The notes under the pieces are model-generated. The model did not search any database. It was not told the DNA's origin and was given only the letters and a program-made list of their open reading frames with translations. Below are positions 34,005 through 62,492 of a DNA stretch of 64,000 nt, piece after piece. This DNA comes from Roseiarcus fermentans (GTDB lineage: Bacteria > Pseudomonadota > Alphaproteobacteria > Rhizobiales > Beijerinckiaceae), in the NCBI RefSeq assembly GCF_003315135.1, contig NZ_QNRK01000012.1, positions 1 through 64,000 of the forward strand. Reading direction: 5' to 3'. Numbering within the stretch: the stretch's first letter is position 1; every line of letters starts with the position of its first letter. The position numbers and the translations under genes are program-made.

Positions 34005-34175
34005 ATGGCTACCGCTTGCGCCGGCCGCGCCGACAAGGGTTCGTCGCAGGCTCCCGCGCGTTCCGCGCGCCCTTGCAGCGCGACCGCCTCGCGGTCGGCG
34101 GGAAGGGCAGGGGCGAGGACCAGCCCAAGTCCAGACAGCCCAGCTCCTGCATCCGAACGCGAGGAGCGACCATGA
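34005..34175 (+). CDS. Possible leader ORF across hairpin element E1
   Basis: A 56-codon frame starts at ATG 34005 after GAGGGAGAG and ends with a TGA that overlaps the toprim ATG by four bases. It reads through hairpin E1. A matching frame (MATA start, shared APARSARPCSAT) runs through hairpin E2 at 39309 and also ends by a four-base overlap with the next gene. The repeated layout suggests a leader peptide that couples translation; similarity may equally follow from the conserved nucleic-acid element. Confidence 0.35.
   Translation: MATACAGRADKGSSQAPARSARPCSATASRSAGRAGARTSPSPDSPAPASEREERP
34026..34097 (+). repeat. Hairpin element E1 upstream of the toprim operon
   Basis: An imperfect stem (CAAGGG with CCCTTG and outer GC pairs) encloses a 30-base loop containing CGCGCG-TTC-CGCGCG, and is followed at 34081-34097 by a second hairpin CGACCGC-CTC-GCGGTCG. 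About 140 bases here match element E2 (39.24-39.40 kb) closely, including the upstream TTCCTGTTCGCGC and ATGGCTACCGCT. Confidence 0.7.
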
Positions 34176-35122
34176 GCGATTCCGAAATCGAAGACTTGCG
34201 CGACAAGGTGCATTGCGCCGTCGTGCTCGAGCGCACGCCGCCGCCCTGGAGGCTCGACCGGAAGGAGAGCACGAAGCTCAGCCTGAAGTATCGCCGCGGG
34301 AAGGGCGAGATCCTGATCGTCAGCCACGGCGGACGCGGCTGGTGGGACCCTATGAGCGACGCCAAGGGCGACGTCTTCGGGCTTGTCCAGAGGCTGGAGC
34401 CGGGGATCAATTTCGGCCATGTCCGCAAGCGCCTGCGCGAATTCGCAGGGCTGTCGCCGGCCTTTCCGATCGCCGAGAGGGCAGGGCGACGCAAGGACCC
34501 CGATCGGCCTGTGCCCCTGCGCTGGGCGGATCGGAAGCCCGTGTGGCCGGGTTCTCCGACGTGGCGGTATCTTGCGCGAAAGCGATTCCTGCCGACGATG
34601 ACCATCGAGGCGGCTTCGGGCGCCGGAGTCTTGCGGGAAGGTCCGGCCGGCAGCGCCTGGTTCGCTCATTTCGACAACGACGGCGTCGTCGCCCATGTCG
34701 ACGTGCGCGGCCCGACGTACAAAGGCTCCCTCACCGGCGGATCGAAGTCGCTCTTCCGGTTGCCCCCGGCCGCCACAACCCGGCCACGGCTCGTTCTCGC
34801 CGAGGCGGCGATCGACACGCTGAGCGTCGCCGGGCTCGAGCGCCTTCGTGGCGACACGCTCTACGCCGCGACCGGCGGCGGGATGGGACCGGGCACGATC
34901 GCCGCGCTCGAGGCGCTGATCGCCGAGATGGCGGCGCTCCCCGACGCTCTCCTCTGCAGCGCCGCGGACGCCAACGACGCAGGCGACCGGTATGCAGAGC
35001 GTCACCGATCGGCGGCGGAAAAATTCGGGGTGGGTTTCGCGTGGCTACGGCCTCCCATCGAAGGCGGCGACTGGAACGACGTCTTGCGCGCCCGCGCCGC
35101 GAGCCGGGGAGGCAAGTCATGA
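34172..35122 (+). CDS. Toprim-domain protein (DUF3991/toprim, primase-like)
   Basis: The 316-residue protein has an N-terminal region like DUF3991 (WWDPMSDAKGDVFGLVQRL) and a C-terminal toprim domain: Glu in RLVLAEAAIDTLSVAGL and the acidic DxD-like pair in SAADANDAGDRYA. Such proteins are plasmid primases or primase-like factors, though a zinc finger and a clear polymerase core are absent. ATG 34172 has GAGGAG in front. Its stop overlaps the next gene (ATGA). A role in priming the incoming strand after conjugation would fit, but this is inference. Confidence 0.8.
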   Translation: MSDSEIEDLRDKVHCAVVLERTPPPWRLDRKESTKLSLKYRRGKGEILIVSHGGRGWWDPMSDAKGDVFGLVQRLEPGINFGHVRKRLREFAGLSPAFPIAERAGRRKDPDRPVPLRWADRKPVWPGSPTWRYLARKRFLPTMTIEAASGAGVLREGPAGSAWFAHFDNDGVVAHVDVRGPTYKGSLTGGSKSLFRLPPAATTRPRLVLAEAAIDTLSVAGLERLRGDTLYAATGGGMGPGTIAALEALIAEMAALPDALLCSAADANDAGDRYAERHRSAAEKFGVGFAWLRPPIEGGDWNDVLRARAASRGGKS

Positions 35123-35817
35123 CTGCGATCACGAAGGGAGCGCCGCGGGCCTTCGTGCTCTTGCGGTCCCGCCGTCGCCTCGACCTTCTCGATCCCGATC
35201 CCGAGGCCTGGACCGACGAAGACCTCGCCGGGGGTCTCTCGCGCACCATGCGATGGGGCGGGGCGTCGCAATGGGAGCACCCGCTCTCCGTCGCCCAACA
35301 TAGCCTCACCGTGCTGGCGATCCGGGAGGCGGACGGAGCGCTGACCGCGGGGGAGGGGCTTCGCGAGCTCCTGCACGACGCCACGGAATTCATGCTGGGC
35401 TGGGACTGCATCACCCCGCTCAAGGCGCAACTGGGCGAGCCGTTTCGCGCCCTCGAGGCCCGCCTGCAGACCGCGATCGACGCGCGCTACCGATTGCCGC
35501 GATGGACGCCCGAAGACTACGCGCTCCACAAGCGGGCGGACCGGCTCGCCGCGGCTTCCGAGGCAATGCACGTCGTCGGCTGGAGCCGGGTCGAGATGCG
35601 CAAGACCCTCGGCATCGCGGAGACTCCGCTCGTTCACGACCCACTCTCGCCATGCGCCTTCGCGCCGTGGGAGCCCTGGCCCCCGCGCGTCGCCGAGCGG
35701 CTCTTCCTCGAGCGGTTCCATGCCCTCGACCACGCTCATCGGTCCGAGCTTCGAAAGCTGGAGCCAGAGCTCCGATCTTCTCTCGTTCTCACAGGAGCCG
35801 AACATGCCGCTTCCTGA
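35119..35817 (+). CDS. HD-domain phosphohydrolase, YfbR-like
   Basis: The 232-residue product carries the HD-superfamily metal pattern: His in WEHPLSVAQHSLTVL, the HD pair in LLHDATEFMLGWD and a later Asp in KRADRLAAASEAM. The arrangement resembles YfbR-like 5'-nucleotidases that act on deoxynucleoside monophosphates. The start overlaps the toprim stop by four bases and its end overlaps the next helicase start by 14, so it sits in the middle of a coupled operon. With the adjacent primase-like and helicase genes, a nucleotide-pool or replication role is plausible. Confidence 0.75.
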   Translation: MTAITKGAPRAFVLLRSRRRLDLLDPDPEAWTDEDLAGGLSRTMRWGGASQWEHPLSVAQHSLTVLAIREADGALTAGEGLRELLHDATEFMLGWDCITPLKAQLGEPFRALEARLQTAIDARYRLPRWTPEDYALHKRADRLAAASEAMHVVGWSRVEMRKTLGIAETPLVHDPLSPCAFAPWEPWPPRVAERLFLERFHALDHAHRSELRKLEPELRSSLVLTGAEHAAS

Positions 35818-37954: not shown

Positions 37955-37973
37955 GAGAGGGCAGGGGGCGGCA

Positions 37974-39091: not shown

Positions 39092-39469
39092 TCTCGCCTC
39101 AAGTCGCTGCGAGGACGTGCAGTGCGCTCGCGACCGTGCGGGAAGTCAAGGCTGGCAAGGGGCCGGCTTCGGGACGGACCTGCGGTTCGCAGGCTCGCTC
39201 AAGCTCATCGCCGGCGCAGCGTTACGAACTCATCCCCGAGGACGAAAAAGCAATTCCTGTTCGCGCAGACGCCGAAGACGCTTCGGTGAGAGACGGAGAG
39301 CGAACGGAATGGCTACCGCTAGCGCCGATCGCGCAACAAGAGTTCGTCGCGACGCTCCCGCGCGTTCCGCGCGCCCTTGCAGCGCGACCGGTTCGCGGTC
39401 GCTCCGGTCGACGGCAGGAAGCTCCCAAGGGCTTGAAAGTCGAACCTGCCGGAACCCGAGACGAGACCA
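39092..39469. other. Leader region of the dnaA-like gene
   Basis: About 380 bases without a confirmed gene contain the element E2 hairpins and its leader frame. The 39092-39230 part shows nothing recognisable. Confidence 0.5.
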
Positions 39470-39473
39470 ATGA
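39309..39473 (+). CDS. Possible leader ORF across hairpin element E2
   Basis: A 54-codon frame starts at ATG 39309 (GGAGAG upstream) and stops by a four-base overlap with the ATG at 39470. It parallels the leader frame at 34005: both begin MATA and share APARSARPCSAT, and both end in an ATGA overlap. It may couple translation or simply reflect the conserved hairpin DNA. Confidence 0.35.
   Translation: MATASADRATRVRRDAPARSARPCSATGSRSLRSTAGSSQGLESRTCRNPRRDQ
39330..39401 (+). repeat. Hairpin element E2
   Basis: Stem pairs CAAGAG-like left arm with CCCTTG and flanking GC pairs around a 30-base loop containing CGCGCG-TTC-CGCGCG; the second hairpin CGACCG-GTTCG-CGGTCG lies at 39385-39401. It is a close copy of E1. 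Confidence 0.7.
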
Positions 39474-40024
39474 CGATCTATCCCAGCGAGCCCAAGAGCG
39501 CGGCCGAGATGATCGCGCGATACCGCGACGTGAAGCGCCGGCTCAATACCCCTGCGCCGACAGTGCGGTCTGAAGAGATCGCTCTCAAGGATCTTGAGAC
39601 CATCGTTGTCTTCGTTCTCGCCGTCGCCGCCGTGACGCGCGTTCGCAACCGCGAGGCCGCGAGGCGCGCCGATCTCCTTTCGCTGCTCCACGCGCCGGTC
39701 ACTACGCCGGTCATTACGCCGGGCAGCGCGGCGAAAGCGGAGCTCCGCGCCGTCTCGGAGAAGACAGGCGTTCCCATAAAGGCCATCCTCGGACGAGAGC
39801 GGGTCGCCAACGTCGCGGCCGCCCGTCACGAGGCGGTCTGGCGGGTTCATCAGGTCACCCGCTGGTCGTTGCCGCGGGTCGGCCGCTTCTTCGGGGACCG
39901 AGACCACACCACGGTTCTGAACTCGCTCCGGCGCATGGAAGAGAAAGCGGCCCTCGACCCGGAGCTCAGCGCCTGCATGACGCGGGTCCGCGAGCGGGGA
40001 AGGGAACGGATCTCTTCCCACTGA
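39470..40024 (+). CDS. Solitary DnaA domain IV-like DNA-binding protein
   Basis: The C-terminal 100 residues of this 184-aa protein match DnaA domain IV: VSEKTGVPIKAILGRER, VAAARHEAVWRVHQVTRWSL, and the DnaA-box recognition signature FFGDRDHTTVLNS. The AAA+ module is missing. Such proteins could bind DnaA boxes, compete with host DnaA or serve plasmid functions. The N-terminal 80 residues are helical and unassigned. The gene is preceded by element E2 and a leader frame overlapping its start. Confidence 0.85.
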   Translation: MTIYPSEPKSAAEMIARYRDVKRRLNTPAPTVRSEEIALKDLETIVVFVLAVAAVTRVRNREAARRADLLSLLHAPVTTPVITPGSAAKAELRAVSEKTGVPIKAILGRERVANVAAARHEAVWRVHQVTRWSLPRVGRFFGDRDHTTVLNSLRRMEEKAALDPELSACMTRVRERGRERISSH

Positions 40025-40127
40025 CGCCTCGAGCGGGAGTCAGGCGCGCCGGCGAGTCTCTCGAAGCAAGAGCATCGACGAGAACCGACAGGCCGCATTT
40101 CGAGGCGCGAACGAGCGCGCCGGCTAT

Positions 40128-40197
40128 CGCATCCCGGCGGCCCGCGACAAGGGTTGGGCCGGGCGCTTCGCGCCCTTGCCGCGGCCGCCGGGATGCG
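40128..40197 (+). repeat. Hairpin element E3
   Basis: Two arms of about 25 bases, beginning CGCATCCCGGCGGCC and ending with the matching GGCCGCCGGGATGCG, enclose a loop with GGGCCGGGCGCTTCGCG. One bulge is present. It ends 43 bases before the next start codon. Confidence 0.85.
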
Positions 40198-40239
40198 AGG
40201 CGCAAGAGGCTGTTTCCGTTCAAGGAGGACGACAGCCCA

Positions 40240-41141
40240 ATGCGAACCTCGAGAATCGATTCCGCCGGGAGGACCCCGCGCACGAGGACCACCACGCTCG
40301 ACCTCTTCCGCCACGACATGCGCAAGCTCACGGTTTACGGGCTTCCGCTCAATCCGCTCTCGGCGCTCGATCAGCTCGCCGGCGCGTCTTTCTGCGTCTC
40401 CTACGGGACGCGCGACAAGCTGAACCGGCAGCTCGACGACGCCATCCGCCTCGTCGGAGAGGACCAGATCCTGCTCGTCGACAACGGTGCCTTCGGCATG
40501 CACAAGCGGGGCGTCGACGCCCGCGACGAAGCCTACCTCGAAGATTACGAACGCTGGGCGCAGGCCATTCTCGACCGCTGCCCGCACGCGATCGCCGTGA
40601 TCCTGACGTCATCGAAGGCGCCGAGACCGAGAATAGGGACCTCGTCATGACGACGATGCTCGACTACGAGCGCGCGATGCCGATCTGGCACATGCACGAA
40701 AGCATCGACACCCTCATCCACCTCTGCGAGAGCCCGTTCAACTACCTTGGGTTCGGGTCGAGCGGCGAATTCTGGAAGGTCGGAACCGGCAAGTGGGCGC
40801 GCCGGATCGACGAGGCCTTCGCCGCAATCGACCGCTGGGAGTGCGAGAGCGAAGGCGCCTACATCCGGCCTCGCATCCACATGATGCGCGCGCAGTCGAA
40901 GGCCCATCTCTTCCCGTTCGATTCGAGCGACAGCTGCAACGTCGCCATCAACCACAACCGCTACCGCGGCGAGGGCGGCGACTGGCTCCGGCGGCGCGCT
41001 CTCTTCGTCGACGAGCGCGTCCAGGGGAGCGCCGGCCCGGAGGCCGAGCACCAGGTCAAGAGGCCGTTGCTCGAGCATCTGGAGACGGCGCGCTGGCGCG
41101 CCTCGTTCTGGGAAGGCGTCCGCAGTGGCCGTGACTTCTGA
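40240..41141 (+). pseudogene. TGT/DpdA-like protein gene with a frameshift
   Basis: Reading in two frames gives a continuous protein of about 300 residues: KLTVYGLPLNPLSALDQLAG, VDNGAFGMHKRG, then after a shift near 40609 PDVIEGAETENRDLVMTTML, MPIWHMHESIDTLI, NYLGFGSSGEFW and FPFDSSDSCNVAINHNRY. The pattern of a VDNGAF strand, a P-D-V-I loop, G-F-G-S-S-G and the late SDS box suggests a TIM-barrel relative of tRNA-guanine transglycosylase, such as phage DpdA, which inserts 7-deazaguanine into DNA. One missing base breaks the gene; it could be a mutation or a sequencing error. AAGGAGG precedes the ATG. Confidence 0.55.
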
Positions 41142-41355
41142 CTGGCTCGCTCGCGCGCTCCGGCTGCGCGCCAACACCCGGACGCGGTCGTCGGCCCACG
41201 CCGCCGCGTTCAAGCCCTGAATTGCGCCGGGCCTCGACATGACCGTGCCTGCGGCCCGCGACGAGCCGGGCTGCTCGACCTGCCGGTCTCACGGGCGAAG
41301 ACGAGAGAGAGCACTGCGAGAGGGAAGGGGAGGACGAAAGAGAGGCGCCGGCTAT

Positions 41356-41424
41356 CGCATCCCGTCCGCCGCGGCAAGGGTCTGGCCGGGCGCTTCGCGC
41401 CCTTGCCGCGGCGGACGGGATGCG
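41356..41424 (+). repeat. Hairpin element E4
   Basis: The arms are two perfect 25-base complements (left 41356-41380, right 41400-41424) around a 19-base loop ending GCCGGGCGCTTCGCG. It ends 52 bases before ardC. Compared with E3 the arm positions that differ have changed on both sides, keeping the pairing. Confidence 0.9.
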
Positions 41425-41476
41425 ACGCGCGAGGGGCTGTTTCCGATCGAACCATCGAGAAAGGAAAAGCCCGAAA

Positions 41477-42427
41477 ATGAGACCCTTCAAACACGAATCC
41501 GCACGGCGCGACCATTATCAGGAGCTGACCGAGGCGGTGATCGCCAAGCTCGAAGAGGGGACGCCCCCCTGGCGCAGGCCCTGGGACCCGAGCAAATGCG
41601 CCGCCGCCACGAGCCCGATGAACCCCGTCACGGGACGCTCGTACCGCGGCGTCAACGCGCTCGCGCTCGCCCTCTCGCCGCTCGCCTTCGCCGGCGACCC
41701 GCGCTGGATGACTTATCGCCAGGCCGGGGAGCGCGGCTGGCAGGTGCGCAAGGGCGAGAAGGGCGCGATCGTGTTCTTCTACAAGAAGCTCGAACTCCGC
41801 GACCGCCAAGGCGACGACGACGAGCGCCGCACGATCCCGCTCCTGCGCGCCTACACGGTCTTCCACGCCTCGCAAATCGACGGCGTGCCGGAACTCGGGG
41901 CGCCGATGGCCGCGAGACCCGTCCCCGAGCGGATCGCCGACGCCGACCTCATCGTGAAGGCGAGCGGCGTGCGGGTCGAGATCGGCGGAGACCGCGCGTA
42001 CTACGCCCCCGCGAGCGACCACATTCGCATGCCGCCGGATGAAGCTTTCGAGAGTCCGGCCGCAAGGTCAGCAACGGTTCTGCATGAATTAGGACACGCG
42101 AGCGGGGCGCCACACCGTCTCAACCGCGATCTTTCCGGCCGATTCGGAGATACGGCGTACTCGCGCGAAGAACTCCGGGCGGAATTGGCGAGCTATTTCG
42201 TCGGAAGCGCACTCGACCTGCCTTGCGACGTACCGAATCACGTAAGCTATATTCAGTCTTGGATCAAGGTGCTCAAATCCGACACGCGGGAAATCTTCCG
42301 CGCCGCGGCGGACGCGAGCCGCATCGCCGACTGGATCCTCTCTCATCACCCAGACCATGGCGAGAGCCGCGACCCGGCGAGCGAGGACGAGCCCTCACCC
42401 GCGCCGACCGAAGCCCTGGCCGCCTGA
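41477..42427 (+). CDS. ardC: ArdC-type antirestriction protein
   Basis: The 316-residue protein has the ArdC layout: an N-terminal ssDNA-binding domain (DHYQELTEAVIAKLEEGT, PWRRPW, TGRSYRGVNALAL, GWQVRKGEKG) and a C-terminal metallopeptidase-like domain with HELGHASGAPHRL (HELGH about 203-207) and a downstream Glu in EELRAELASYF. ArdC proteins protect incoming plasmid DNA from restriction and coat ssDNA. ATG 41477 is preceded by GAAAGGAAA. Element E4 lies just upstream. Confidence 0.92.
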   Translation: MRPFKHESARRDHYQELTEAVIAKLEEGTPPWRRPWDPSKCAAATSPMNPVTGRSYRGVNALALALSPLAFAGDPRWMTYRQAGERGWQVRKGEKGAIVFFYKKLELRDRQGDDDERRTIPLLRAYTVFHASQIDGVPELGAPMAARPVPERIADADLIVKASGVRVEIGGDRAYYAPASDHIRMPPDEAFESPAARSATVLHELGHASGAPHRLNRDLSGRFGDTAYSREELRAELASYFVGSALDLPCDVPNHVSYIQSWIKVLKSDTREIFRAAADASRIADWILSHHPDHGESRDPASEDEPSPAPTEALAA

Positions 42428-45009: not shown

Positions 45010-45056
45010 ATCGCAACGAACGTGAACACGGTCGGAGCACGCAAGACGACCTGCCA

Positions 45057-45121
45057 GCCGCCGACGCGCCGCGCAAGGGTCCAGCCGGGCGCTTCGCGCC
45101 CTTGCGCGGCGCGCCGCCGGC
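45057..45121 (+). repeat. Hairpin element E5
   Basis: Perfect 15-base arms (45065-45079 and 45099-45113, CGCGCCGCGCAAGGG and complement) enclose a 19-base loop ending AGCCGGGCGCTTCGCG; weaker pairing extends outward. It ends about 95 bases before the DUF3085-like start. Confidence 0.85.
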
Positions 45122-45215
45122 CCGCCGTCCGAGGATGTGTTTCAGGAAGTCCTGAACCCACGAACGCAACGACGATGGAGACATCGCCATCGAAACTCGC
45201 AGCAGGGAAAGACCA

Positions 45216-45629
45216 ATGTCACGACTTGTCTTCAAGGCGGAGGATCTCCGCCGAATCGTCACGCACGCGCTCGCGGCGCCGAGCCATTCCGTAGGCTACG
45301 GCGGCGTCAAAGGCGACGTCATCCTCGTCCACGATCAGGGCGTCTACCTGATGAGCGCCGGCCAGCCGCGCGACCTCATCAGCGAAGGCGGCGTCTCGAG
45401 CTACGTGGCCTACGCTGAGGGCTGCGACCCCGGCAAGGACTCGGCCTGGTGGGAGAGGGCGCGCGAGCTCGTCGGCGGCGACGACTTCGGCGAGCATTTT
45501 CCTTGGGCGAAGGCGATCGGCGCGGCCATCGACGCCGGCGCGACGACCGTCGCCATCAACATCACCCAAGAGAGCATCTCTCTCGTCGCATTCGGTTCGA
45601 ACTCTTGCCTCGGGGAGCGCGCGTCGTGA
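45216..45629 (+). CDS. DUF3085-like protein
   Basis: The 137-residue product starts SRLVFKAEDLRRIVTHALAA and continues HSVGYGGVKGDVILVHDQGV, GVSSYVAYAEGCDP and FPWAKAIGAAIDAGATTVAI. The start and the glycine-rich GY block resemble DUF3085, a plasmid-borne family of unknown function. I am fairly but not fully sure of the family. Its stop overlaps the following GTG start by four bases. Hairpin E5 precedes the operon. Confidence 0.6.
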   Translation: MSRLVFKAEDLRRIVTHALAAPSHSVGYGGVKGDVILVHDQGVYLMSAGQPRDLISEGGVSSYVAYAEGCDPGKDSAWWERARELVGGDDFGEHFPWAKAIGAAIDAGATTVAINITQESISLVAFGSNSCLGERAS

Positions 45630-49465: not shown

Positions 49466-52400
49466 ATGGACCACGACCAGTTCTCCCTGCCCTTCCTCGA
49501 CACGACCAGCCTCGGCGGCGGTTTCGGCCTTTACGGCGGATCGTCGGCGCCGAAGCGGTCCCCGAAGTCCGCCCCGACGCGCGAGGACGCGGAGCTGTTC
49601 GACCCGCCGGTTTTCGAACCCGCGACGTCCGACGAGACCCCGATCCCGACGCCGGCCGTCGCCGCGCAGGATTACCAGCTCGCCGGAGATCGCCGTCTTG
49701 GCCAGACCTGGAAAGAGCGCGCCGAGGACAATCTCGCCGCGATCCGCCTCATGACGGCGATCCAGGCCGAAGGCCGCCACGCCCGTCCGGACGAGCAGGA
49801 GCGCCTCGCCAGATTCGTGGCCTTCGGCGCCTCGGATGTCGCAGACAAAGTCTTCCGCCGCGTCGACCAGGATTTCGAACGGGCATGGGAGGAGATCGGC
49901 CTCGAGCTCGAACAGGCCGTCTCGCGCGAGGACCTCGCAAGCCTGAAGCGCGCGACGCAATACGCCCATTTCACACCCGAGTTCATCGTCCGGGCCATCT
50001 GGCGGGCGCTTCGCCGTATGGGCTTTTCCGGCGGGCGCGTCCTCGAGCCCGGCTGCGGGACGGGGCTCTTCTTCGCGCTTTCGCCAGAGCCGCTGTCCGG
50101 CAAGCTCGCGCTGACGGGTGTCGAAATGGACGCAACGACCGCCCGGATCGCAAGACTCCTCTATCCGAACGCCCGCATCCGCCACGAGGATTTCACGAAG
50201 GCGCGATTGCCCGAGCTCTACGATCTCGCGATCGGTAATCCGCCCTTCTCCGACCGCACCGTGCGCGCCGACGATCCGGCCGGGGCGCTCAGCCTCTCCC
50301 TGCACGACTTTTTTCTCGCACGCTCCGTCGAGCGGCTGAGGCCCGGCGGCCTCGCAGCGTTCGTGACCTCGCGCTGGACGATGGACAAGATCGATGGAAA
50401 GGCGCGCGAGCACATCGCAGCCATGGCCGATCTCGTCGGCGCCGTGCGGCTCCCCGAAGGCGCAATGCACGACCGCGCAGGAACGGACGTCGTCGTCGAC
50501 ATCCTCTTCCTTCAGAGGCGGGACGCAGGAGCAGCGCCTGCCGGCGCGTCCTGGGACAGCCTGTCCGAAGCCGTGCCGGCCGAGGACGGCGACCCGGCGC
50601 TCTCGATCAACCGATACTTCGTTGAGCACCCCGAAATGGCGCTCGGAACCCATGCGCGAACCACGAGCGCCTACGGGCCAGTCTATACCCTGAAGCCGGT
50701 CATTTCGACGGAAGGTGCGCTCTCGGATCTCCTGGCGGAAGCCCTCGACCGCCTTCCGCGCGACCTCTTCAAACCGGCCGCGGCCCTCCCGAAGCCGTCG
50801 TTCGAATCGAAGGTCCGGGTCGGCACGGCCGCAGACGGCGCCGCAATCAAGGAAGGCAGCTATCTCGTCCATGAAGGCCACCTTGTCCAGATCGTCGCCG
50901 GCGAGCCGCAGCCGATCGCCGTGCGCGACGGCAGGGGAACCGAGGGCATCCCCGCAAAGCACGCCCGCATCATCCGCGGCCTCATCGCCGTTCGCGACGC
51001 CGTCCGCGAGGTTCTGCGCACGCAGGCCAACGACGAGCCCTGGGGCTCGGCGCAGATCCGGCTGCGCTCGGCCTACGCGCTCTTTGTGCGCAACTTCGGC
51101 CCGATCAACCTGACGACGATCAGCCACACCGTGACCGCAGAGGGCGACACGCGAGAAACCTTCCGTCGGCCGAACCTTCAGCCCTTCCTCGACGATCCCG
51201 ACGTCTGGCTCGTCGCCTCGATCGAGGACTACGACCTCGAAAGCGGAACGGCGAAACACGGACCGATCTTCCGCGAACGGGTGCTCCATCCCGAGACGAC
51301 GCCGCTGATCGAGACGGCCCAGGACGCGCTCGCCGTCACGTTGCACGAGACCGCCCTCGTCGACCTCGACCGCATCGCCGAGCTTCTCGGCCGCTCGCGC
51401 GAGACGGCCATCGCGAACTTAGGCGAGCGCATCTTCCTCGATCCCGAACCGAGCGTCGCCATGAACCGCGACGTCTGGGTGACGGCCGACGCCTATCTCT
51501 CGGGCAAGGTCCGCGACAAGCTCACGGCGGCGCGCGCCGCCGCGGCGCTCGATCCACGATATCGGCGCAATGTCGACGCGCTCGAGAAGACCCTGCCCGA
51601 AGACCTGAAGCCGTCCGACATCACCGCCCGCCTCGGCGCGCCGTGGATTCCGGCCGACGTCGTCGCCGCCTTCTCGGAGGAGGTCCTCGGCGTCAGGACG
51701 CCCGTCTATCACACGGTCGAGATCGCGTGCTGGTCGATCAATGTCCACGCCTTCGTGCCGATCGCCAGCTCCTCGACCGATTGGGGCACGGCCCGTCGCC
51801 ACGCCGGCGAACTCCTCACGGACGCTTTGAACGCCTCCCTGCCCCAGATCTACGACGAGTTCGAGGAAGACGGGGTCAAGAAGCGGGTGCTGAACGCCTC
51901 GGACACCGAGGCCGCCAAGGACAAGCTCGCGAAGATCAAGGCGGCGTTCGAAACCTGGGTGTGGAAGGACTTCGAACGCGCCGAGCGCCTCGCCCGCATC
52001 TACAACGACCGCTTCAACAATCTCGTCCCCCGACACTTCGACGGGTCGCATCTGACGATTCCCGGCGCCTCGAGCGTCATCAGCTTCTACGCCCACCAGA
52101 AGCGCGTCATCTGGCGGATCGTCGCCTCGGGGACGACCTATGTCGCCCACGCGGTCGGGGCCGGAAAGACCTTCTCGCTGGCGGCTGCGATCATGGAGCA
52201 GAAGCGGCTCGGCCTCATCACCAAGGCCATGATGGTCGTACCCGGCCATTGCCTCGCCCAGGCGTCGCGCGAATTCCTCCAGCTCTACCCGACGGCCCGC
52301 ATCCTGGTCGCCGACGAAACCAACTTCGTCAAGGACAAGCGCCAACGCTTCCTCGCCCGCGCCGCGACCGCGCAATGGGACTGCATCATCATCACCCACT

Positions 52401-54565
52401 CCGCGTTCAAGTTCATCCCCGCCCCGGCCGAATTCGAGCGCGCGCTGATCACACGGCAGATGCAATCCTATTCCGATCTCCTCGAGCGGATCGACGGGGC
52501 CGACCGGCTTTCGCGAAAGCGCATCGAGCGCATGAAGGAAGGCCTCGAGGAGGATCTCGAGCGGCTGAAATCGCGCAAGGACGACATGATCACGATCGCC
52601 GAGCTCGGCGTCGACCAGCTGATCGTCGACGAGATGCAGGAGTTCCGGAAGCTCTCGTTCGCGACCAACCAGACGACCCTGAAGGGCATCGATCCGGACG
52701 GCTCGCAACGGGCCTGGGACCTCTACGTCAAGGTCCGCTTCATCGACATGACCGTGAACCCCGGCCGGGCGCTGATCGCGGCCTCCGGCACGCCGATCAC
52801 GAATTCGCTCGCCGAGCTCTTCACGCTCCAGCGCTTCATCCAGCCGGACGCTCTCGCCGAGCGCGGCATCCAGGAGTTCGACGCCTGGGCGGCGAGTTTC
52901 GGCGAGACCAGGACTGAGCTCGAGTTGCAGCCCTCCGGCCTCTACAAGCCCGTCACCCGGTTCTGCGAGTTCGTCAACGTGCCGGACCTCATGGCTATCT
53001 ATCGCATGGCGACCGACGTCGTGCTCAAGTCCGATCTTCGCCAGTATCTGAAGCTCCCGGCGATCGCCGGCGGGCGCAGGCAGATCGTCGCCGCCCCGGC
53101 GAGCGACGCCTTCCTCGCCTACCAGCGCCGTCTCGCAGAGCGGATCAAGGCGATCGAGGCGCGGACCGGCAAGCCGGTCAAGGGCGACGACATCCTGCTC
53201 TCCGTCATCACCGACGGCCGGCACGCCGCGATCGACCTGCGCTTCGTTGGCCCGGACAACGACAACGATCCTTCGAACAAGTTGAACGCGCTGATCGACA
53301 CCGTTCATCGCATATGGGAACAAACAGCGAACATTCGCTATACCCGCCTCGACGGCGTCCCCTACGCTCTCCCCGGCGCAGCCCAGATGATCTTCTCCGA
53401 TCTCGGCACGCTCGCCGCCGAGGAGACGCGCGGGTTCTCCGCCTATCGCTGGATCAAGGATTCACTGATCGCGCGCGGCGTGCCGGCGAGCCAGGTCGCG
53501 TTCATGCAGGACACCAAGAAGTCCTCGGCGAAGCAGCAGCTCTTCAACGCCGTGAACGCCGGCCAGATCCGCGTGCTGATCGGCTCGTCCGAAACAATGG
53601 GGACCGGGGTCAACGCCCAGCGTCGCCTCAAGGCGCTCCACCATCTCGACGTTCCGTGGCTCCCCTCGCAGATCGAGCAGCGCGAGGGCCGGATCGAGCG
53701 CCAGGGCAACGAGAACGACGAGATCGAGCTCTACGCCTACGCCACCAAGCGCAGCGTTGACGCAACCGGATGGCAGATCCTCGAACGGAAGGCCCGCTTC
53801 ATCGACGCGGCCATGTCCGGCGACCGCTCGGTTCGACGGATCGAGGACGCCGGCTCGCAGGCGAACCAGTTCGCTCTCGCCAAGGCCATCGCCTCGGGCG
53901 ACGAACGGCTCATGCGCAAGGCCGGGCTCGCGTCCGAAATCGCCCGGCTCGAGCGCCTGCGTGACAGCCATTTCGACGATCAGTTCGCCATCCGGCGCAA
54001 GATCGGCTTCGGCGAAAAGCGGCTCGAGGAGGCGACCCGTAGAATCGAGGCGATCACGCAGGATCTCGCCAGGCGCATCCCGACGCGGGGCGAGGCTTTC
54101 GTCATGACGATCGGCGATCGGCCCTTCGCCGAACGCAAGCGCGCGGGCGAGGCGCTGATTGCGGTTGCCCGAAAGATGAAGCCGACGAAACCGGGGGCCG
54201 TCGTGCCGATCGCCGCGATCGGCGGCTTCGCGGTCGTCGTCAGGACGGGCTATTTCGACGACATCGAGATCAGGCTCGACCGCGCCGCCGCCGGGACCGA
54301 CGCCATCCCTCTCGACAAGGATGCGACGCCGCTCGGCCTCGTCTCGCGCATCGAATCCGCGCTCGCCAGGTTCGATCTCGAGCTCGCCGAAGAGCGCCGC
54401 ACGGCGGCCGAGGTCTCCGGGTGGCTCCCCGGCTTCAAGGCGAGGCTCGGCGACGCCTTCCCGCATGAGGCGGAGCTCGAGGAGAAACGCGCCGAAATGG
54501 CGGAGCTAGACGCGTCGCTCGCGGCCGCCACTGACGCGCCGAATCCGGATCGCGCCGAGGCGTGA
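49466..54565 (+). CDS. DarB-like methyltransferase-helicase, antirestriction protein
   Basis: The 1699-residue protein has an N-terminal gamma-like N6-methyltransferase (motif I RVLEPGCGTGLFF at 191-203, motif IV LAIGNPPFSDR, NPPF 258-261) and, after a long middle, a superfamily 2 helicase: Walker A HAVGAGKTFSLAAA about 895-908, motif II LIVDEMQEFRKL about 1053, motif VI QIEQREGRIERQGN about 1400. The arrangement resembles phage P1 DarB, which protects DNA from type I restriction, and related huge methylase-helicases on conjugative elements. ATG 49466 is the first good start. It dominates the operon downstream of element E6. Confidence 0.85.
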   Translation: MDHDQFSLPFLDTTSLGGGFGLYGGSSAPKRSPKSAPTREDAELFDPPVFEPATSDETPIPTPAVAAQDYQLAGDRRLGQTWKERAEDNLAAIRLMTAIQAEGRHARPDEQERLARFVAFGASDVADKVFRRVDQDFERAWEEIGLELEQAVSREDLASLKRATQYAHFTPEFIVRAIWRALRRMGFSGGRVLEPGCGTGLFFALSPEPLSGKLALTGVEMDATTARIARLLYPNARIRHEDFTKARLPELYDLAIGNPPFSDRTVRADDPAGALSLSLHDFFLARSVERLRPGGLAAFVTSRWTMDKIDGKAREHIAAMADLVGAVRLPEGAMHDRAGTDVVVDILFLQRRDAGAAPAGASWDSLSEAVPAEDGDPALSINRYFVEHPEMALGTHARTTSAYGPVYTLKPVISTEGALSDLLAEALDRLPRDLFKPAAALPKPSFESKVRVGTAADGAAIKEGSYLVHEGHLVQIVAGEPQPIAVRDGRGTEGIPAKHARIIRGLIAVRDAVREVLRTQANDEPWGSAQIRLRSAYALFVRNFGPINLTTISHTVTAEGDTRETFRRPNLQPFLDDPDVWLVASIEDYDLESGTAKHGPIFRERVLHPETTPLIETAQDALAVTLHETALVDLDRIAELLGRSRETAIANLGERIFLDPEPSVAMNRDVWVTADAYLSGKVRDKLTAARAAAALDPRYRRNVDALEKTLPEDLKPSDITARLGAPWIPADVVAAFSEEVLGVRTPVYHTVEIACWSINVHAFVPIASSSTDWGTARRHAGELLTDALNASLPQIYDEFEEDGVKKRVLNASDTEAAKDKLAKIKAAFETWVWKDFERAERLARIYNDRFNNLVPRHFDGSHLTIPGASSVISFYAHQKRVIWRIVASGTTYVAHAVGAGKTFSLAAAIMEQKRLGLITKAMMVVPGHCLAQASREFLQLYPTARILVADETNFVKDKRQRFLARAATAQWDCIIITHSAFKFIPAPAEFERALITRQMQSYSDLLERIDGADRLSRKRIERMKEGLEEDLERLKSRKDDMITIAELGVDQLIVDEMQEFRKLSFATNQTTLKGIDPDGSQRAWDLYVKVRFIDMTVNPGRALIAASGTPITNSLAELFTLQRFIQPDALAERGIQEFDAWAASFGETRTELELQPSGLYKPVTRFCEFVNVPDLMAIYRMATDVVLKSDLRQYLKLPAIAGGRRQIVAAPASDAFLAYQRRLAERIKAIEARTGKPVKGDDILLSVITDGRHAAIDLRFVGPDNDNDPSNKLNALIDTVHRIWEQTANIRYTRLDGVPYALPGAAQMIFSDLGTLAAEETRGFSAYRWIKDSLIARGVPASQVAFMQDTKKSSAKQQLFNAVNAGQIRVLIGSSETMGTGVNAQRRLKALHHLDVPWLPSQIEQREGRIERQGNENDEIELYAYATKRSVDATGWQILERKARFIDAAMSGDRSVRRIEDAGSQANQFALAKAIASGDERLMRKAGLASEIARLERLRDSHFDDQFAIRRKIGFGEKRLEEATRRIEAITQDLARRIPTRGEAFVMTIGDRPFAERKRAGEALIAVARKMKPTKPGAVVPIAAIGGFAVVVRTGYFDDIEIRLDRAAAGTDAIPLDKDATPLGLVSRIESALARFDLELAEERRTAAEVSGWLPGFKARLGDAFPHEAELEEKRAEMAELDASLAAATDAPNPDRAEA

Positions 54566-55199: not shown

Positions 55200-55236
55200 C
55201 GGGCGGGCAAGGAACCTCCGAGCACGGGACGCCCGT

Positions 55237-55316
55237 CCGCCGCAAAGGGTGGGTCCGTCCCGCCGCTTCGCTTGGCGGTCCGGATCCCGGCGCTTCAAGC
55301 GCCGCCTTTGCCCCGG
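55237..55316 (+). repeat. Hairpin element E7
   Basis: GCAAAGG and CCTTTGC close a longer inner region that carries two small hairpins, CCGCC...GGCGG and the perfect GGCGCTT-C-AAGCGCC (55289-55303). It resembles E3-E6 in outer stem and position but not in loop sequence. It ends about 70 bases before the ParB-like start. Confidence 0.6.
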
Positions 55317-55388
55317 CCGGATCGCCCGCGCTTCTCAGGGTTTCGTCTTCGAGAAAGTCCTCGAAGAGCAGAAGCCAGGAGCACTCAG

Positions 55389-57158
55389 ATGGAACTGCGA
55401 CGCGTCGATCCGGTCACCCTCAAAATCAACCCCCGCAATCCCCGTAAAATCCAGCCCGGCGAAATGTCCGACGAGGCGCTCGCCGCGAGCATCCAGCTGA
55501 TCGGCATTCTGCAGCCGCCGGTTGCGAGCGACAAGGACGGCGAACTCGAGTTGGTCTTCGGCGAGCGTCGCGTCAAGACAGCCATCAAAGTCGGCCTCCC
55601 CGAGATCGACGTCCTGGTCAAGGATCCAGACGACAAGGACAACATGCGCGCCGTCAGCGAGAACGTGATCCGCGCGCCCATGGCCACGGTCGACCTCTGG
55701 CGCGGGATCGAAAGCCTCGCCTCCGAAGGCTGGACCGAGGAGGCGATCGCCTCCGCGTTCGCAATTTCCGTCCGCCAGGTCCGGAAGCTCCGCCTGCTCG
55801 CAACCGTCCATCCGGCGATCCTCGACCAGATCGGCGCCGGAGACATGCCGAAGGAGCAGGAACTGCGCACGATCGCGTCGGCCTCGCGCGAGGATCAGGA
55901 GAACGTCTGGAAGAAGATCAAGCCAAAGAAGGGGGAGCGCGCGGTCTGGTGGCAGATCGCGCAGGCGCTCAACAAGACCCGCTTCTTCGCCAGGGACGCG
56001 AAATTCGGCGAGGACGAGCGCGCGGCCTTCGCCATCGTCTGGCAGGAGGACCTCTTCGCAGAAGGCGACGAGGACAATCGCTTCACCGTCGACGGCGAGG
56101 CGTTCCTGGCGGCCCAGCGGGCGTGGCTCGACGCCCACATGCCGAAGAACGGCGTCCTTCTCGAGGTTGACGACTACGGTCGCGAGAAACTGCCGCCCAA
56201 GGCCGAGCGCACCTGGACAAAGCCGAAGAAGGGCGACCAGATCGGCTTCACGATCCACCCGCGCGACGGGACGATCCACGAAACCGTTTTCCGCATCCCG
56301 AAACCTGAAGCCCCGAAGGGAAAGGACCGCGCGGAGGACGCGCCGACGCCGAAGACAACCCGGCCCGAAATCACGAGCAAGGGAACCGAGATCATCGGGG
56401 CCCTCCGAACCGAGGCGCTCGTGAAGAGCCTCGAGGTCGATCCTTGCGACGACGTCCGCCTGATCGGCCTCCTCGTCCTGGCTCTCAACGCCAACAACGT
56501 CATGATCCAGACCGACGACTACAATCGCCCCGAACGGAAGTCTCTCGTTCAGTCGATCACCGCGGGCGGCGAGCTCACTGCGGACGCTGAGCGCCTGCGC
56601 ATCGTCGCGCGACAGATGCTCATGAGCGTCCTGTCGTGCGCGCCCGGTCGGGGCGACAGCGGACTCGTGGCCCGAATCGCCGGGCGCGCGCTCGGCGCCG
56701 ACGCGCACATCGCGAACATGGCGACGGAGGACTTTCTGTCGTGCCTGTCGAGGGCGGGCATCGAAAAGGTCGGATCAAGCCTCGGAGTTCTGCCGCGCCC
56801 GCGCGTCAAAGACACCCGCGCCGAAGTCATCAAGCAGGCGGCCGGCGCAACCTACGTCCATCCGGCCGCCCTGTTTGCGCTGACCGAAGCAGAGATCGCA
56901 CGGCAAGCAGAGGCGCCGCGCCAATACTCGTGGGAAAACGCCGATCCGGAAAAGGCCGACGAGGAACTGGGGGAGGGCGCAACGGGCGCCGAAGACGGGG
57001 AACCGGCCAACGAGCCACAGGAGGCGCTTCAGGACGATCCGGAGCACGACGGCGAAGGGGGCGAGGGGGCGCGGGACGACGAGCGTCGAAACGACGGGGA
57101 AGCGGTCGCAGAGACGGGCAATCGTCGCCGTCGGCGACGTGAGACCGCGGCGACCTGA
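55389..57158 (+). CDS. ParB/Srx-domain protein of the plasmid leading-region type
   Basis: The 589-residue protein starts with a ParB N-terminal domain: LRRVDPVTLKINPRNPRKIQ, SIQLIGILQPPVASD and LVFGERRVKTAIKVGLPEID, followed by a helix-turn-helix (EEAIASAFAISVRQVRKLRL). The centre and C-terminal part (about 230-520) are unassigned and the last 70 residues are acidic. ATG 55389 fits the domain start. It is not the partition protein, which is RepB; such ParB-like proteins are common near conjugative leading regions and may act on DNA or as nucleases. Element E7 precedes it. Confidence 0.8.
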   Translation: MELRRVDPVTLKINPRNPRKIQPGEMSDEALAASIQLIGILQPPVASDKDGELELVFGERRVKTAIKVGLPEIDVLVKDPDDKDNMRAVSENVIRAPMATVDLWRGIESLASEGWTEEAIASAFAISVRQVRKLRLLATVHPAILDQIGAGDMPKEQELRTIASASREDQENVWKKIKPKKGERAVWWQIAQALNKTRFFARDAKFGEDERAAFAIVWQEDLFAEGDEDNRFTVDGEAFLAAQRAWLDAHMPKNGVLLEVDDYGREKLPPKAERTWTKPKKGDQIGFTIHPRDGTIHETVFRIPKPEAPKGKDRAEDAPTPKTTRPEITSKGTEIIGALRTEALVKSLEVDPCDDVRLIGLLVLALNANNVMIQTDDYNRPERKSLVQSITAGGELTADAERLRIVARQMLMSVLSCAPGRGDSGLVARIAGRALGADAHIANMATEDFLSCLSRAGIEKVGSSLGVLPRPRVKDTRAEVIKQAAGATYVHPAALFALTEAEIARQAEAPRQYSWENADPEKADEELGEGATGAEDGEPANEPQEALQDDPEHDGEGGEGARDDERRNDGEAVAETGNRRRRRRETAAT

Positions 57159-58435: not shown

Positions 58436-58461
58436 GCCGCACAACGCCGTTGGAAAGACCT

Positions 58462-58926: not shown

Positions 58927-58938
58927 TCTGGTCTCCAA

Positions 58939-59820
58939 TTATTGTAGGACTGTTTGGTAGGCTGTACCCGATCCCAATCGATTTATAATCGTGCTGCGCC
59001 ATTGGCCCACCGTGCTTGACGTTGTCAGGCCATTTGCAGCTAGTTGGCTTGCAGTTAATCCGGTCAGCGTTGCAATATTATCTGAATCGCTTGCGTCAGC
59101 AACGCTTGGGCCGACTCCGGCTCCGAATTGATATACTGCTCTTGCATCCAAGACAGTGGGATTGGAAATCGTCGTTTGCGCCTGAAGCAACAGCGCGTCT
59201 TGCCTCAACTCATACGCCGCCGCATAAGCTTCGGTCGCCGGATCCATTCGCCCGTCGAGCCCAGAAACGATGCTCCCGGAGATATCGGAATTGTAGGCGA
59301 CCGCGCCGTTGATGTCGGCCGTATAGGTGGAGCTGATCATCTGAAACGCGCCAGCGGCCGAGCTCCCACCGGACGCCCCCACATTCTGGCAATTCGACTC
59401 CATGACGCATGTCGCGGCAAGGGCGTTGGCGCTGACGCCCATCGCCGCCGCCGCGTTCGCGGCCTGCGAACCCCAATCCTGCGCCATCATAGTATCGTAG
59501 GCCGCGCCGGTCCCGCCCGTCCCGGCTCCAACCCCGGTTGTCACCCCGCTCCCGACCCCACCGGTGTCGGCGCCCGCGCCCGAACCCCCGAGCAGCGTGT
59601 CGCCGCCTGACGGGAACGAGAACGCCGGAAGGCCGGGCTCCGGAAACGTCGGGTGAACCTGGACCGGCAACCCTTGAGGCAAGACGATCTGCGGCTCAGC
59701 ATGCGCTCGCGGAGCCGACATGATCGCCGCCGCAAACATCGCCGCCCTCAGGCTTCGCGGACATTCGCGACGCGACGGCCGTTCCGCGCGCGCTCTTCGG
59801 GCATGAACTCTGCGAGACAT
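58939..59820 (-). CDS. Lytic transglycosylase-like, VirB1-type secreted protein
   Basis: The 293-residue protein starts at ATG 59820 after GAGAGGAGG, with an N-terminal export signal ending APRAHAEP. A short segment LPVQVHPTFPEPGLPAFSFP and a glycine-rich linker follow. The SLT-like domain has the catalytic Glu in ATCVMESNCQN and the GAFQMISSTY box; VYQFGAGVG lies later. It would cut peptidoglycan glycan strands, as VirB1 does for type IV secretion assembly. A longer upstream frame exists but lacks a ribosome site. The segment before the linker is shared with the BPSL0067-like protein at 60631. Confidence 0.8.
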   Translation of the reverse strand: MSRRVHARRARAERPSRRECPRSLRAAMFAAAIMSAPRAHAEPQIVLPQGLPVQVHPTFPEPGLPAFSFPSGGDTLLGGSGAGADTGGVGSGVTTGVGAGTGGTGAAYDTMMAQDWGSQAANAAAAMGVSANALAATCVMESNCQNVGASGGSSAAGAFQMISSTYTADINGAVAYNSDISGSIVSGLDGRMDPATEAYAAAYELRQDALLLQAQTTISNPTVLDARAVYQFGAGVGPSVADASDSDNIATLTGLTASQLAANGLTTSSTVGQWRSTIINRLGSGTAYQTVLQ

Positions 59821-60621: not shown

Positions 60622-60630
60622 CGGACTGCC

Positions 60631-61371
60631 TCACCGAATTGTGTAGTAACGACTGCCGCCTTCGGCCGTGTTCGTACCCCAGGCGCTCCACGGAATCGTG
60701 TGAATCGAAGCGCCGCCGGAATTCTTATACTGGTCGAGGATCTGAACACCGGTCGCGTCCTGGCCGAGGTAGATCCCTGTGTGGCTGACGCCATAGTCGC
60801 CGCCGGGACTGTCAGGCGGACCATACGCGCCGTTGAAGTTGAACGTCGCGATCGGCGTTCCCACAGGAATATCCGTCGCTCCCTGGACGAGCTCGCCCTG
60901 CTGCCATTGGCTCGAAGGCGGCAAAGACGGATCGAAGGAGCGCGTCAAAGACACGCACTCCTGGTTCACACCGTAGTAGGACCCGACATATTGCTGATAG
61001 TCTGACGCCAGGGTCGACAACGGCTGACCCCCCGAGCCGTCCGACGTCCCCCCGACCGTCCCTGATCCGCCGGGATCCCCGCTCCCAACCGATCCCCCGA
61101 GCAACGTCCCGCCGCCGGCCGGAAACGAGTACGCCGGCAAGCCGGGCTCCGGAAACGTCGGGTGAACCTGAACCGGCAACCCGCTCGGCGTCACGACCTG
61201 CGGATCGGCCCAGCTCGGGCCGCCGAGGACCGCAAAGCCGGCCGTCGCCACGAGCCCCAGACCAACCGGCGCCACGATCGGCCAAAGCCAGTCCGCCGAT
61301 CGCCTCCTCTTCCGTCTGCCCGCCGCGACGGTCGCCCGCCAGAGGACGGGCGCCCGGTTTGGCGTCGCCAT
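60631..61371 (-). CDS. BPSL0067-family (CHAP-like) peptidoglycan amidase
   Basis: The 246-residue protein has a basic N-terminus and one membrane/export helix (WLWPIVAPVGLGLVATAGFA), then LPVQVHPTFPEPGLPAYSFP plus a glycine-rich linker, and a C-terminal domain with the BPSL0067 pattern: catalytic Cys in NQECVSLTRSF, PPSSQWQQGELVQG, GTPIATFNFNGAYG and His in YGVSHTGIYLGQ, ending VQILDQY. These cysteine peptidases cleave peptide stems in the cell wall. The N-terminal segment is nearly identical to that of the lytic transglycosylase 1 kb away. GGGAGAAG precedes the ATG. It heads the leftward operon. Confidence 0.75.
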   Translation of the reverse strand: MATPNRAPVLWRATVAAGRRKRRRSADWLWPIVAPVGLGLVATAGFAVLGGPSWADPQVVTPSGLPVQVHPTFPEPGLPAYSFPAGGGTLLGGSVGSGDPGGSGTVGGTSDGSGGQPLSTLASDYQQYVGSYYGVNQECVSLTRSFDPSLPPSSQWQQGELVQGATDIPVGTPIATFNFNGAYGPPDSPGGDYGVSHTGIYLGQDATGVQILDQYKNSGGASIHTIPWSAWGTNTAEGGSRYYTIR

Positions 61372-61483
61372 CGCTCTTCTCCCTGATCGTCAGGACGATC
61401 AGGGTCGAAGCGATCCGCGCGAACACGAATCCCTTTCTTCGAGACGCGCGCAGGCGGCGCGCTGGGAACGGAGTTGCGCCGCC

Positions 61484-62059
61484 TTAACGAGAGCGGGCGT
61501 TGTGCGCCGCGATTACCGCGTTCATGTCGTCCTCGGCGTTCGCGGGCCGCCAGGCCTCGCCGCGCATTGCGAAGGCGACCGCCCGATCGGCGCCATGGGC
61601 CGCCTCGGCGGCCTCATGGGCGACGATCTGAAGTCTCGCCGCCTCGATCGCCCAATAGTCCGCCGCCTCCCTCAACGGCGCAATCCAGTAGCCGCCCTCG
61701 ATCTGCGCGATCGCGAGCTTCTCGTTGTCGGCGTCCGATCGCATGGACGCCTGCCGCGCCTGAGCGCAGGCGGCGACGGCGCGATCGATGAGCGGCCTCA
61801 GGATCCCGTTCAACGTCGCGCGCCGCGCCTCGCGGTCGACGGGCAAGTCCATCGCCGCAATCCTCTCCGCCATCGCCCGGTCCGCCTTGCCGCGACCCTC
61901 CGGGTCCGACGCGTCGAACCCGAACGCCTCGGCGATCAACTCGACTTCGCGCGAGTCGGGCGCGACGTCGATCAGAAGCTCGATCGACGGCTTTGCGCGC
62001 AATTCGACGGGGAAGCGGACGATATTCCCGCCCAGCAGGGACAACGTCTCGTAACGCAT
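61484..62059 (-). CDS. Hypothetical protein
   Basis: ATG 62059 is preceded by GGGAGG; longer upstream frames lack a ribosome site. The 191-residue, helix-rich protein reads MRYETLSLLGGNIVRFPVEL, SIELLIDVAPDSREVELIAE and NGILRPLIDRAVAACAQARQ. It is soluble, with no signal peptide, and matches no family I know. It is divergent from ssb and may belong to the transfer/cell-wall set to its left. Confidence 0.65.
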   Translation of the reverse strand: MRYETLSLLGGNIVRFPVELRAKPSIELLIDVAPDSREVELIAEAFGFDASDPEGRGKADRAMAERIAAMDLPVDREARRATLNGILRPLIDRAVAACAQARQASMRSDADNEKLAIAQIEGGYWIAPLREAADYWAIEAARLQIVAHEAAEAAHGADRAVAFAMRGEAWRPANAEDDMNAVIAAHNARSR

Positions 62060-62492
62060 GGAACTGCCTCCCGGATCGAACAAACCATGAACAATTACCA
62101 GCGGGCGCCCCGCCTCGTCAACACAAGATGTAGGGGTTTTGGAGAGAAAGCGAGAAAAGACCGGGAGAGAACAAGCGCAGGAATGCGCAAGAGACGGGAC
62201 AGGAATGGGCTGCGCTCGCGGCCCGTGCGGTCCCCCGGATTTCCGTGCGGCCATGAAGCCGGACAGACCGCGCCGCAACGGCTGCGGGCGACGATTTTCC
62301 CCTTCGGCCCCCAAGGGGCCGAATTCCTCGCGCGGCAAAATCGCCGCCCTTCGCCGTCCTCCGCTCATCGCTACGGCCCGCTCGCGAGGCTCGCGGGTGC
62401 TGGCCCGGCCCGCCCGGCTTCCTTCGAGCCGCACCTGAGGGACCGACGGCACGAGCCGAAGGCCCGAGGAGAACGGAAGAAGGAGCGAACAC
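62060..62492. other. Divergent leader region of ssb
   Basis: About 430 bases with no supported gene. It holds element E8 and further GC-rich dyads around 62380-62430. The ssb promoter must lie here. Confidence 0.5.
62287..62348 (+). repeat. Nested hairpin element E8 upstream of ssb
   Basis: GGCGACGATTTT pairs with AAAATCGCCGCC (one mismatch) around an inner perfect hairpin TTCGGCCCC-CAA-GGGGCCGAA (62303-62323). It resembles E1-E7 in position and GC-rich nesting but not in loop sequence. Confidence 0.65.

Follow-up and report, generated by a model that had tools for sequence, protein, structure and literature searches.

The window analyzed here is a stretch of 64,000 nucleotides (nt) of Roseiarcus fermentans DNA lying on contig C12 (167,006 bp; genome size 6.8 Mb), and it contains eight long hairpins (E1—E8) situated ahead of rightwards-transcribed genes. 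These raise the question of which strand and which nucleic acid they fold in, and what they do ahead of such genes. It is the template strand of the downstream genes, as DNA, that takes up the hairpin fold, and the family is larger than the E1—E8 set described in an earlier reading of the letters alone (the sequence-only reading). With a probability of about 0.6, judged from sequence comparison, the elements are start sites on single-stranded DNA (ssDNA) that would act as the leading region of a plasmid enters a cell, similar to the Frpo sites of plasmid F but lacking -35/-10 boxes. This reading is favoured because of the template-strand preference in the family and in an F-like control, and because no sigma-70 promoter pair is enriched. 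The elements of the window are as follows.

E1, 34016–34100, + strand: ahead of a toprim/DUF3991 gene; inner stem (core) at 34034–34075; loop class TTCGTCGC..GCGCGTTCCGCGCG
E2, 39318–39410, + strand: E1 relative ahead of a DnaA domain IV gene; inner stem with one A.C break
E3, 40127–40199, + strand: type A hairpin ahead of a DpdA/TGT-like gene
E4, 41355–41425, + strand: type A hairpin ahead of ardC; two perfect 26-nt arms at 41355–41380 and 41400–41425
E5, 45053–45125, + strand: type B hairpin ahead of a DUF3085 gene and a Mom-family gene
E6, 49167–49239, + strand: type B hairpin ahead of a DarB-like SNF2/methylase gene
E7, 55228–55325, + strand: CAAAGG/CCTTTG variant with two inner hairpins, ahead of a ParB_N gene; core at 55243–55310
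E8, 62283–62348, + strand: hairpin ahead of ssb, lacking the CAAGGG/CCCTTG stem; membership uncertain

The pattern CAAGGG-N(3-25)-CCCTTG matches the window four times (40148, 41375, 45074 and 49188, all on the + strand), compared with 0.06 on average, and never more than 1, in 100 dinucleotide shuffles of the window. The core CAAGGGTNNNGCCNNGCGCTTCGCGCCCTTG is present in four copies in the window and in one on a second contig (C58) of the same genome. E3—E6 have a common fixed core and outer arms that compensate on both sides, as the sequence-only reading had described; its two perfect arms of 25 bases in E4 are indeed perfect, although each is 26 nt long. It also ranked E1, E2, E7 and E8 as looser relatives, and the layout of E1, E2 and E7 is that of E3—E6. 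The family scan described below recovers E1 and E7, whereas E2 (about 39338), with its broken inner stem, was not picked up, and E8 is a less certain member. No Rfam family reaches its gathering score over E1—E8 in the comparison proposed by the sequence-only reading, the overlap listed being mir-4776 (E 0.41; 27 bits vs 97).

Compensation was examined in 32 copies (29 distinct rows) across the inner 12 stem pairs and two loop pairs. The cells pair in 96.6% of cases and 52 cells are altered on both sides, with a covariation score of 0.314 compared with 0.096 when shuffled (0/500) and at most 0.110 with partners slid. The number of pairs with a double change, however, is ordinary (6 vs 5.1 shuffled; 67/500). 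Drift of the arms without compensation did not occur, and the strong compensation together with non-random placement supports the earlier proposal of a selected structure in ssDNA or RNA, of which the strand tests favour template-strand DNA. Two mutually exclusive folds, also proposed earlier, are both found on paper by energy folding: in E3, E4 and E5 the minimum-energy template-strand DNA fold has GGGCGC-GAA-GCGCCC stacked on the outer stem, whereas that of E6 retains the long stem. A role as a functional switch is a candidate one.

The family scan gave 116 hits, or 114 distinct elements after two nested duplicates were dropped, forming 76 clusters at 80% arm identity; candidates with an outer-stem score below 10 or a local hairpin off the 3′ side were dropped and went uncounted. 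Homologous leading regions were reached via protein searches, and 20 alphaproteobacterial plasmid stretches were taken from a part of the listed matches; the family is thus traced outward from leading-region proteins, and only C12 and 13 whole records show how common it is elsewhere. The 114 elements are in Roseiarcus/Rhodoblastus contigs and in plasmids of seven alphaproteobacterial families (Beijerinckiaceae, Methylocystaceae, Acetobacteraceae, Nitrobacteraceae, Boseaceae, Phyllobacteriaceae and Stappiaceae). They share an architecture of outer stem, CAARRG stem and inner hairpin abutting the 3′ arm, with varying loops, and lie upstream of ardC, darB-like, toprim and other genes. The strict form of the family pattern is absent from shuffled sequence. 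Two subtypes are distinguished by their outer arms, type A preceding ardC and the DpdA-like gene and type B the others. Relatives of E1 lie ahead of toprim or similar genes at two Methylosinus loci (L095, L096), and the CAAAGG/CCTTTG variant of E7 recurs at loci L094, L095, L096 and L142. Close copies are found in two genomes of the same genus and in Rhodoblastus records (a third genus-level match, G010, looks like a chance match), and plasmid searches by blastn with the leaders of E4 and E6 gave only seven and one weak records, respectively.

A pattern scan of the 13 named plasmids as whole records gave 19 matches in 10 records, and none with the reversed pattern as a control. Eighteen of the 19 share their strand with the leading genes, although one of these lies outside the annotated stretch; the remaining match, in a Bradyrhizobium record, is away from the leading genes and looks unrelated. 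The three records without the strict form are from Methylocapsa and Beijerinckia, which carry CAAAGG or CAAAAG variants, and Geminicoccaceae (L104), in which the family scan found no member. L104 has two identical long hairpins of other sequence (5782–5855 and 23883–23956), one before ardC and one before a small gene.

Element orientation was set from the inner hairpin, independently of the genes, and compared with the genes afterwards. In 19 annotated plasmid stretches all 74 elements are on the gene strand, and a gene start lies 30–120 nt downstream of 68 of them, compared with 7.1% of random positions. Measured from the inner stem, the next annotated start is a median of 65.5 nt away, and the six elements beyond the 30–120 nt range have distances of 183, 217, 255, 445, 706 and 1350 nt. 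Of 28 copies outside the window, 23 have a downstream same-strand gene similar to a C12 gene, and none was found for the other five. REP (repetitive extragenic palindromic) elements are small GC-rich palindromes in several copies, and the family is alike in this, with several copies per replicon. Random placement as mobile REP-like repeats is nonetheless scarcely credible: the genome has only five copies (strict pattern) or seven (looser pattern), confined to two contigs, and unlike REP elements the family is not dispersed but is fixed in place and orientation before genes.

The strand in which the elements fold was addressed with the 76 cluster representatives and symmetric mismatch scoring; the copies share descent, and clustering lessens the effect of kinship without removing it. 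An inner (local) hairpin is present in 71 of the 76 and 44 have triloops. Of these, 39 are TNC on the gene strand (TTC 21, TGC 17, TCC 1), corresponding to GNA on the template strand, and none is GNA on the gene strand. C-G closes 31 of the 39 GNA triloops, and GNA triloops make up 23 of 27 in the named plasmids alone, a set that no loop-specific pattern selected.

The mismatches have a similar polarity. Function as sense RNA implies that G.U is tolerated on the gene strand, whereas function on the template strand implies G.T there, which appears as A.C on the gene strand. The gene strand has 94 A.C and 25 G.T mismatches (238 others), and clustering at 50% arm identity (23 clusters) leaves 30 A.C vs 8 G.T. 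Outside positions 2–3 the gene-strand counts are C.C 46/G.G 7, C.T 80/A.G 9 and A.C 87/G.T 24, where ratios of 0.58, 0.33 and 1.77 would be expected from the composition of the flanks, the flanks being G- and A-rich on the gene strand. Positions 2–3 frequently have C.C (79 of the 88 mismatches there), equivalent to G.G on the template strand. Template-strand mismatches are mostly G.G, G.A and G.T, which are the more stable mismatches in DNA.

Folding with DNA parameters gives the same direction, the template strand being favoured in 74/76 whole elements (128/228 random windows) and in 72/76 when only the stem is folded and the loop neutralized (Roseomonas 28/28, Beijerinckiaceae/Methylocystaceae 15/16, Roseiarcus/Rhodoblastus 19/22, other 10/10). 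Among 950 other hairpins of the same loci 537 favour the template strand vs 397, with near-symmetric mismatches (G.G 1043/C.C 1240, A.G 1065/C.T 1108, G.T 1031/A.C 1097) and TNC in 2/34 triloops. In the window the template strand is favoured by E1, E2, E5, E6, E7 and E8 (for E8, -31.6 vs -26.8 kcal/mol). An F-like leading region (L143) served as a positive control, and in both of its hairpin regions, picked by position and mutual similarity, the template strand is better (-65.8 vs -57.5 and -69.5 vs -61.6). CCCTTGC is present in the gene-strand 3′ arm of both of these hairpins (4695–4894 and 1374–1573), as it is in the family, possibly by chance; a ParB-family gene lies beside ssb and psiB in the same region.

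The strand tests (loops, mismatches and folding stability) are the basis for preferring the template strand to sense RNA. A 5′ leader of the sense mRNA, acting as an attenuator, RNase III site or ribosome-binding site (RBS) structure, would account for the strong gene-strand RNA folds of E3, E4 and E6, and it has a parallel in EGeRS1 of pLS20, which is described in PMC8708921 as a structured upstream region blocking readthrough. It is improbable, as gene-strand mismatches are mostly C.C, C.T and A.C with G.T scarce, the triloops read TNC, and 72/76 stem-only folds are less stable on the gene strand; E4 is unusual as gene-strand RNA (z -6.35) and E1 (z -0.49) and E2 (z +0.75) are ordinary. The strand polarity weakens RNase III and attenuator leaders alike. 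Antisense RNA, transcribed from the other strand and folding into the hairpins, would predict the same polarity of mismatches (as G.U in RNA), but it would need a separate antisense promoter before every operon, and GNA triloops are favoured in DNA rather than RNA, such that we consider it very improbable. There is as little likelihood that the elements act in duplex DNA, as operators or cruciforms to which the ParB_N protein or another plasmid protein binds. The near-invariant, palindromic GCAAGGG/CCCTTGC core would suit such a site, but the arms change sequence yet keep pairing, and neither a duplex site nor a symmetric cruciform predicts polarity towards one strand.

Whether the folding strand is also the one that enters a cell was judged from the gene layout. 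The rightwards-transcribed genes between 34 and 58 kb encode toprim/DUF3991, UvrD, TSCPD, WGR, DnaA-C, ArdC, DUF3085, Mom-family, 1699-aa SNF2/methylase and ParB_N proteins, and their order is largely kept in named relatives (Methylocella, Methylocapsa, Methylosinus, Roseomonas and Beijerinckia). The main features are listed here.

34172–35122, + strand: toprim/DUF3991 gene (Pfam)
39470–40024, + strand: DnaA C-terminal domain gene (Pfam Bac_DnaA_C)
41477–42427, + strand: ardC (Pfam ArdcN and MPTase-PolyVal)
45216–45629, + strand: DUF3085 gene (Pfam)
46099–47037, + strand: Mom-family gene
49466–54565, + strand: DarB-like SNF2 helicase/methylase gene, 1699 aa (Pfam)
55389–57158, + strand: ParB_N gene, 589 aa (Pfam)
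62493–62885, + strand: ssb (Pfam SSB)
contig 71778–74903: TrwC relaxase gene, beyond the leading genes

The Pfam scan covered 39 proteins of C12. Among the labels in the sequence-only reading it recovers toprim/DUF3991, Bac_DnaA_C, ArdcN, DUF3085, SNF2/helicase, ParB_N and SSB, and gives no match for the DpdA/TGT-like gene. That gene is present as two overlapping frames (40240–40650 and 40647–41141), with one longer open reading frame (ORF) in the related loci L033 and L037. C12 has repABC signatures, including a Pfam match to RepC, a ctRNA above the Rfam gathering score and an S-element below it.

At all loci with a relaxase gene in view (C12, L096, L102 and L105) it is on the 3′ side of the leading genes, and the template strand is probably the transferred strand. 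According to a survey of leading regions (PMC11541004), prevalent leading-region genes, including anti-defence genes, have an orientation that would permit transcription of the entering strand, and the relaxase gene is typically lagging. Leading genes on the transferred strand with ssDNA promoters have precedent in PMC11541004 and PMC9849209.

If so, the entering strand, with its 5′ end at the origin of transfer (oriT) to the right of the window, would be the template of the rightwards genes. It would fold into an outer stem of ~20–26 bp, followed by the GCAAGGG/CCCTTGC stem, which hardly varies, and by an inner hairpin that is GC-rich and in many copies has a GNA triloop (GAA, GCA). An initiating enzyme, either host RNA polymerase or a primase, may be recruited by the duplex stem, and synthesis would proceed toward oriT through the operon (ardC, Mom, DarB-like, ParB-like and others). 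The protective genes would thus be expressed early, or made double-stranded first, and the signal would vanish once the DNA turns duplex. To the right of CCCTTG the elements are T-rich at 35–37 nt and become rich in purines at about 40 nt, the purine-rich part probably being an RBS; both would fit a start near the hairpin base or at the inner hairpin.

The closest comparison is with the Frpo/ssi sites of F and ColIb-P9, which are likewise hairpins on the template-serving strand before leading genes (ssb, anti-restriction and ParB-like), in several copies per plasmid. The family resembles them in its stable template-strand stem-loop, in its placement and probably in the strand transferred. It differs in being GC-rich and alphaproteobacterial, with a fixed GCAAGGG/CCCTTGC stem and an inner hairpin that often has a GNA loop.

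The Frpo of F is reportedly both a promoter and a primer site, and the main rival explanation is second-strand priming, in which host DnaG or the toprim/DUF3991 protein of the plasmid acts as a primase recruited by the hairpins, the operons become duplex and ordinary promoters express them. Its predictions of strand and polarity equal those of an ssDNA start site, and the window, L093—L105 except L096, and L136—L140 all have a toprim/DUF3991 gene in view, although L141 and L142 do not. Priming would not need the fixed 30–120 nt distance to the gene start, however, and sigma-70-like promoters are not enriched beside the elements (upstream sites with at least 9 of 12 matches in 2/76, compared with 2.7 in shuffled sequence), and we regard it as unlikely. 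A sigma-70 promoter in or upstream of the element was rejected for lack of enrichment; motifs for other sigma factors were inspected by eye only.

Several observations weigh against an Frpo-like ssDNA start site. The reconstitution of -35/-10 boxes in Frpo/ssi is not seen here, since no -35/-10 pair (TTGACA-N16-19-TATAAT) reaches 9 of 12 matches in the stem of any of the 76 elements plus 80 nt (1.0 in shuffled sequence), and the right arm has no conserved -10. No oriT or nick site was located, and the polarity of pLS20 is opposite, section 4.1 of PMC8708921 giving the transferred strand as the non-template strand. With partners permuted within mismatches the A.C excess shrinks (63 vs 43.9, standard deviation 5.6, maximum 61), and a template-strand preference is also seen among the 150 strongest control hairpins (97 vs 50). 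E3 and E4 are near-perfect palindromes in which the gene strand is marginally better (within 0.5 kcal/mol), and hairpin-like sequence around the RBS and ATG, such as GGCTGT..ACAGCC in type A, could act in mRNA. A class-wide pattern scan of 385 genomes gave no clear excess outside the genome itself (34 matches vs 17 with the reversed control) and is uninformative.

Two other known systems bear on how such a site might be read. According to PMC4496689, promoters of the phage N4 virion RNA polymerase are template-strand hairpins with a 3-nt loop containing a sheared G:A pair and a GC-rich heptamer. The N4 promoters show that promoter function is possible for a hairpin of the template strand whose triloop contains a sheared G:A pair. 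The template heptamer GCGNAGC is present in 48 of the 76 elements, 22 of the 76 having first been found with a loop-specific pattern, and here the small hairpin is enclosed in a long paired stem, which differs from N4. That the N4 heptamer itself has the form GCGNAGC is our reconstruction from residue numbers. The elements could belong to a novel initiation system for entering plasmid ssDNA in Alphaproteobacteria, with GNA-triloop hairpins convergent with N4 rather than with the sigma-70-type Frpo, repeated before each entry operon and read by a candidate polymerase or primase that may arrive together with the DNA or be a product of the leading region. We hold this tentatively, as a doubtful though real possibility. 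No RNA polymerase family has a Pfam match among the 39 scanned proteins of C12. The second system, EGeRS1 of pLS20, consists of conserved inverted-repeat regions before establishment operons including ardC, and PMC8708921 gives them as 400–600 bp and lacking a strong constitutive promoter; their size and the transferred strand set them apart from the family.

ssDNA promoters have been described in a few plasmids of enterobacteria. In two surveys (PMC11541004, PMC12826799) they are recognized from -35/-10 boxes or from their similarity to known Frpo, and these methods would miss the hairpin family described here. No published description of it was found in the open-licence literature, most subscription papers being outside that coverage. 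In alphaproteobacterial plasmids (those of methanotrophs, Roseomonas, acetic acid bacteria and rhizobia relatives) the family marks the entry genes and hence candidates for anti-defence functions, and the polarity of loops and mismatches on the template strand provides a general sequence test for ssDNA vs RNA hairpin function.

The second contig with the core, C58 (L028), is probably another plasmid; it has a DarB-like gene and four elements that lie on the same strand as one another. The window also contains a direct repeat of 143 nt with 79% identity (59558–59700 and 61067–61209). Left of repABC, at 12124–17000 on the - strand, are genes with ResIII/endonuclease and GmrSD_N domains, which suggests a restriction or defence cluster.

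A scan of genome contigs gave 54 stretches, 18 of the Roseiarcus/Rhodoblastus type and 36 from other taxa (Clostridia, Maricaulis, Nocardioides and others) that are not placed in the family. When folded, 26/32 of the other-taxa hits also favour the complement, partly because the scan pattern fixed the loop. Clostridial and Synergistaceae contigs (L041, L051, L058, L065, L069, L071, L075, L078, L079, L083 and L092) have a similar hairpin, most with TGTCAAGGGT..GCGCTTCGCGCCCTTGACA, and that of L058 adjoins an integrase-like and a sigma-like ORF, perhaps as part of an integrative element. In Nocardioides (L056, L074, L082 and L088) a CAAGGGT..CCCTTG hairpin is present in at least four copies, and next to one of them is an ORF that appears to encode a DUF222/HNH protein. 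Maricaulis genomes (L049, L066, L067, L073, L086, L087 and L091) contain a repeated long hairpin with the same core pattern.

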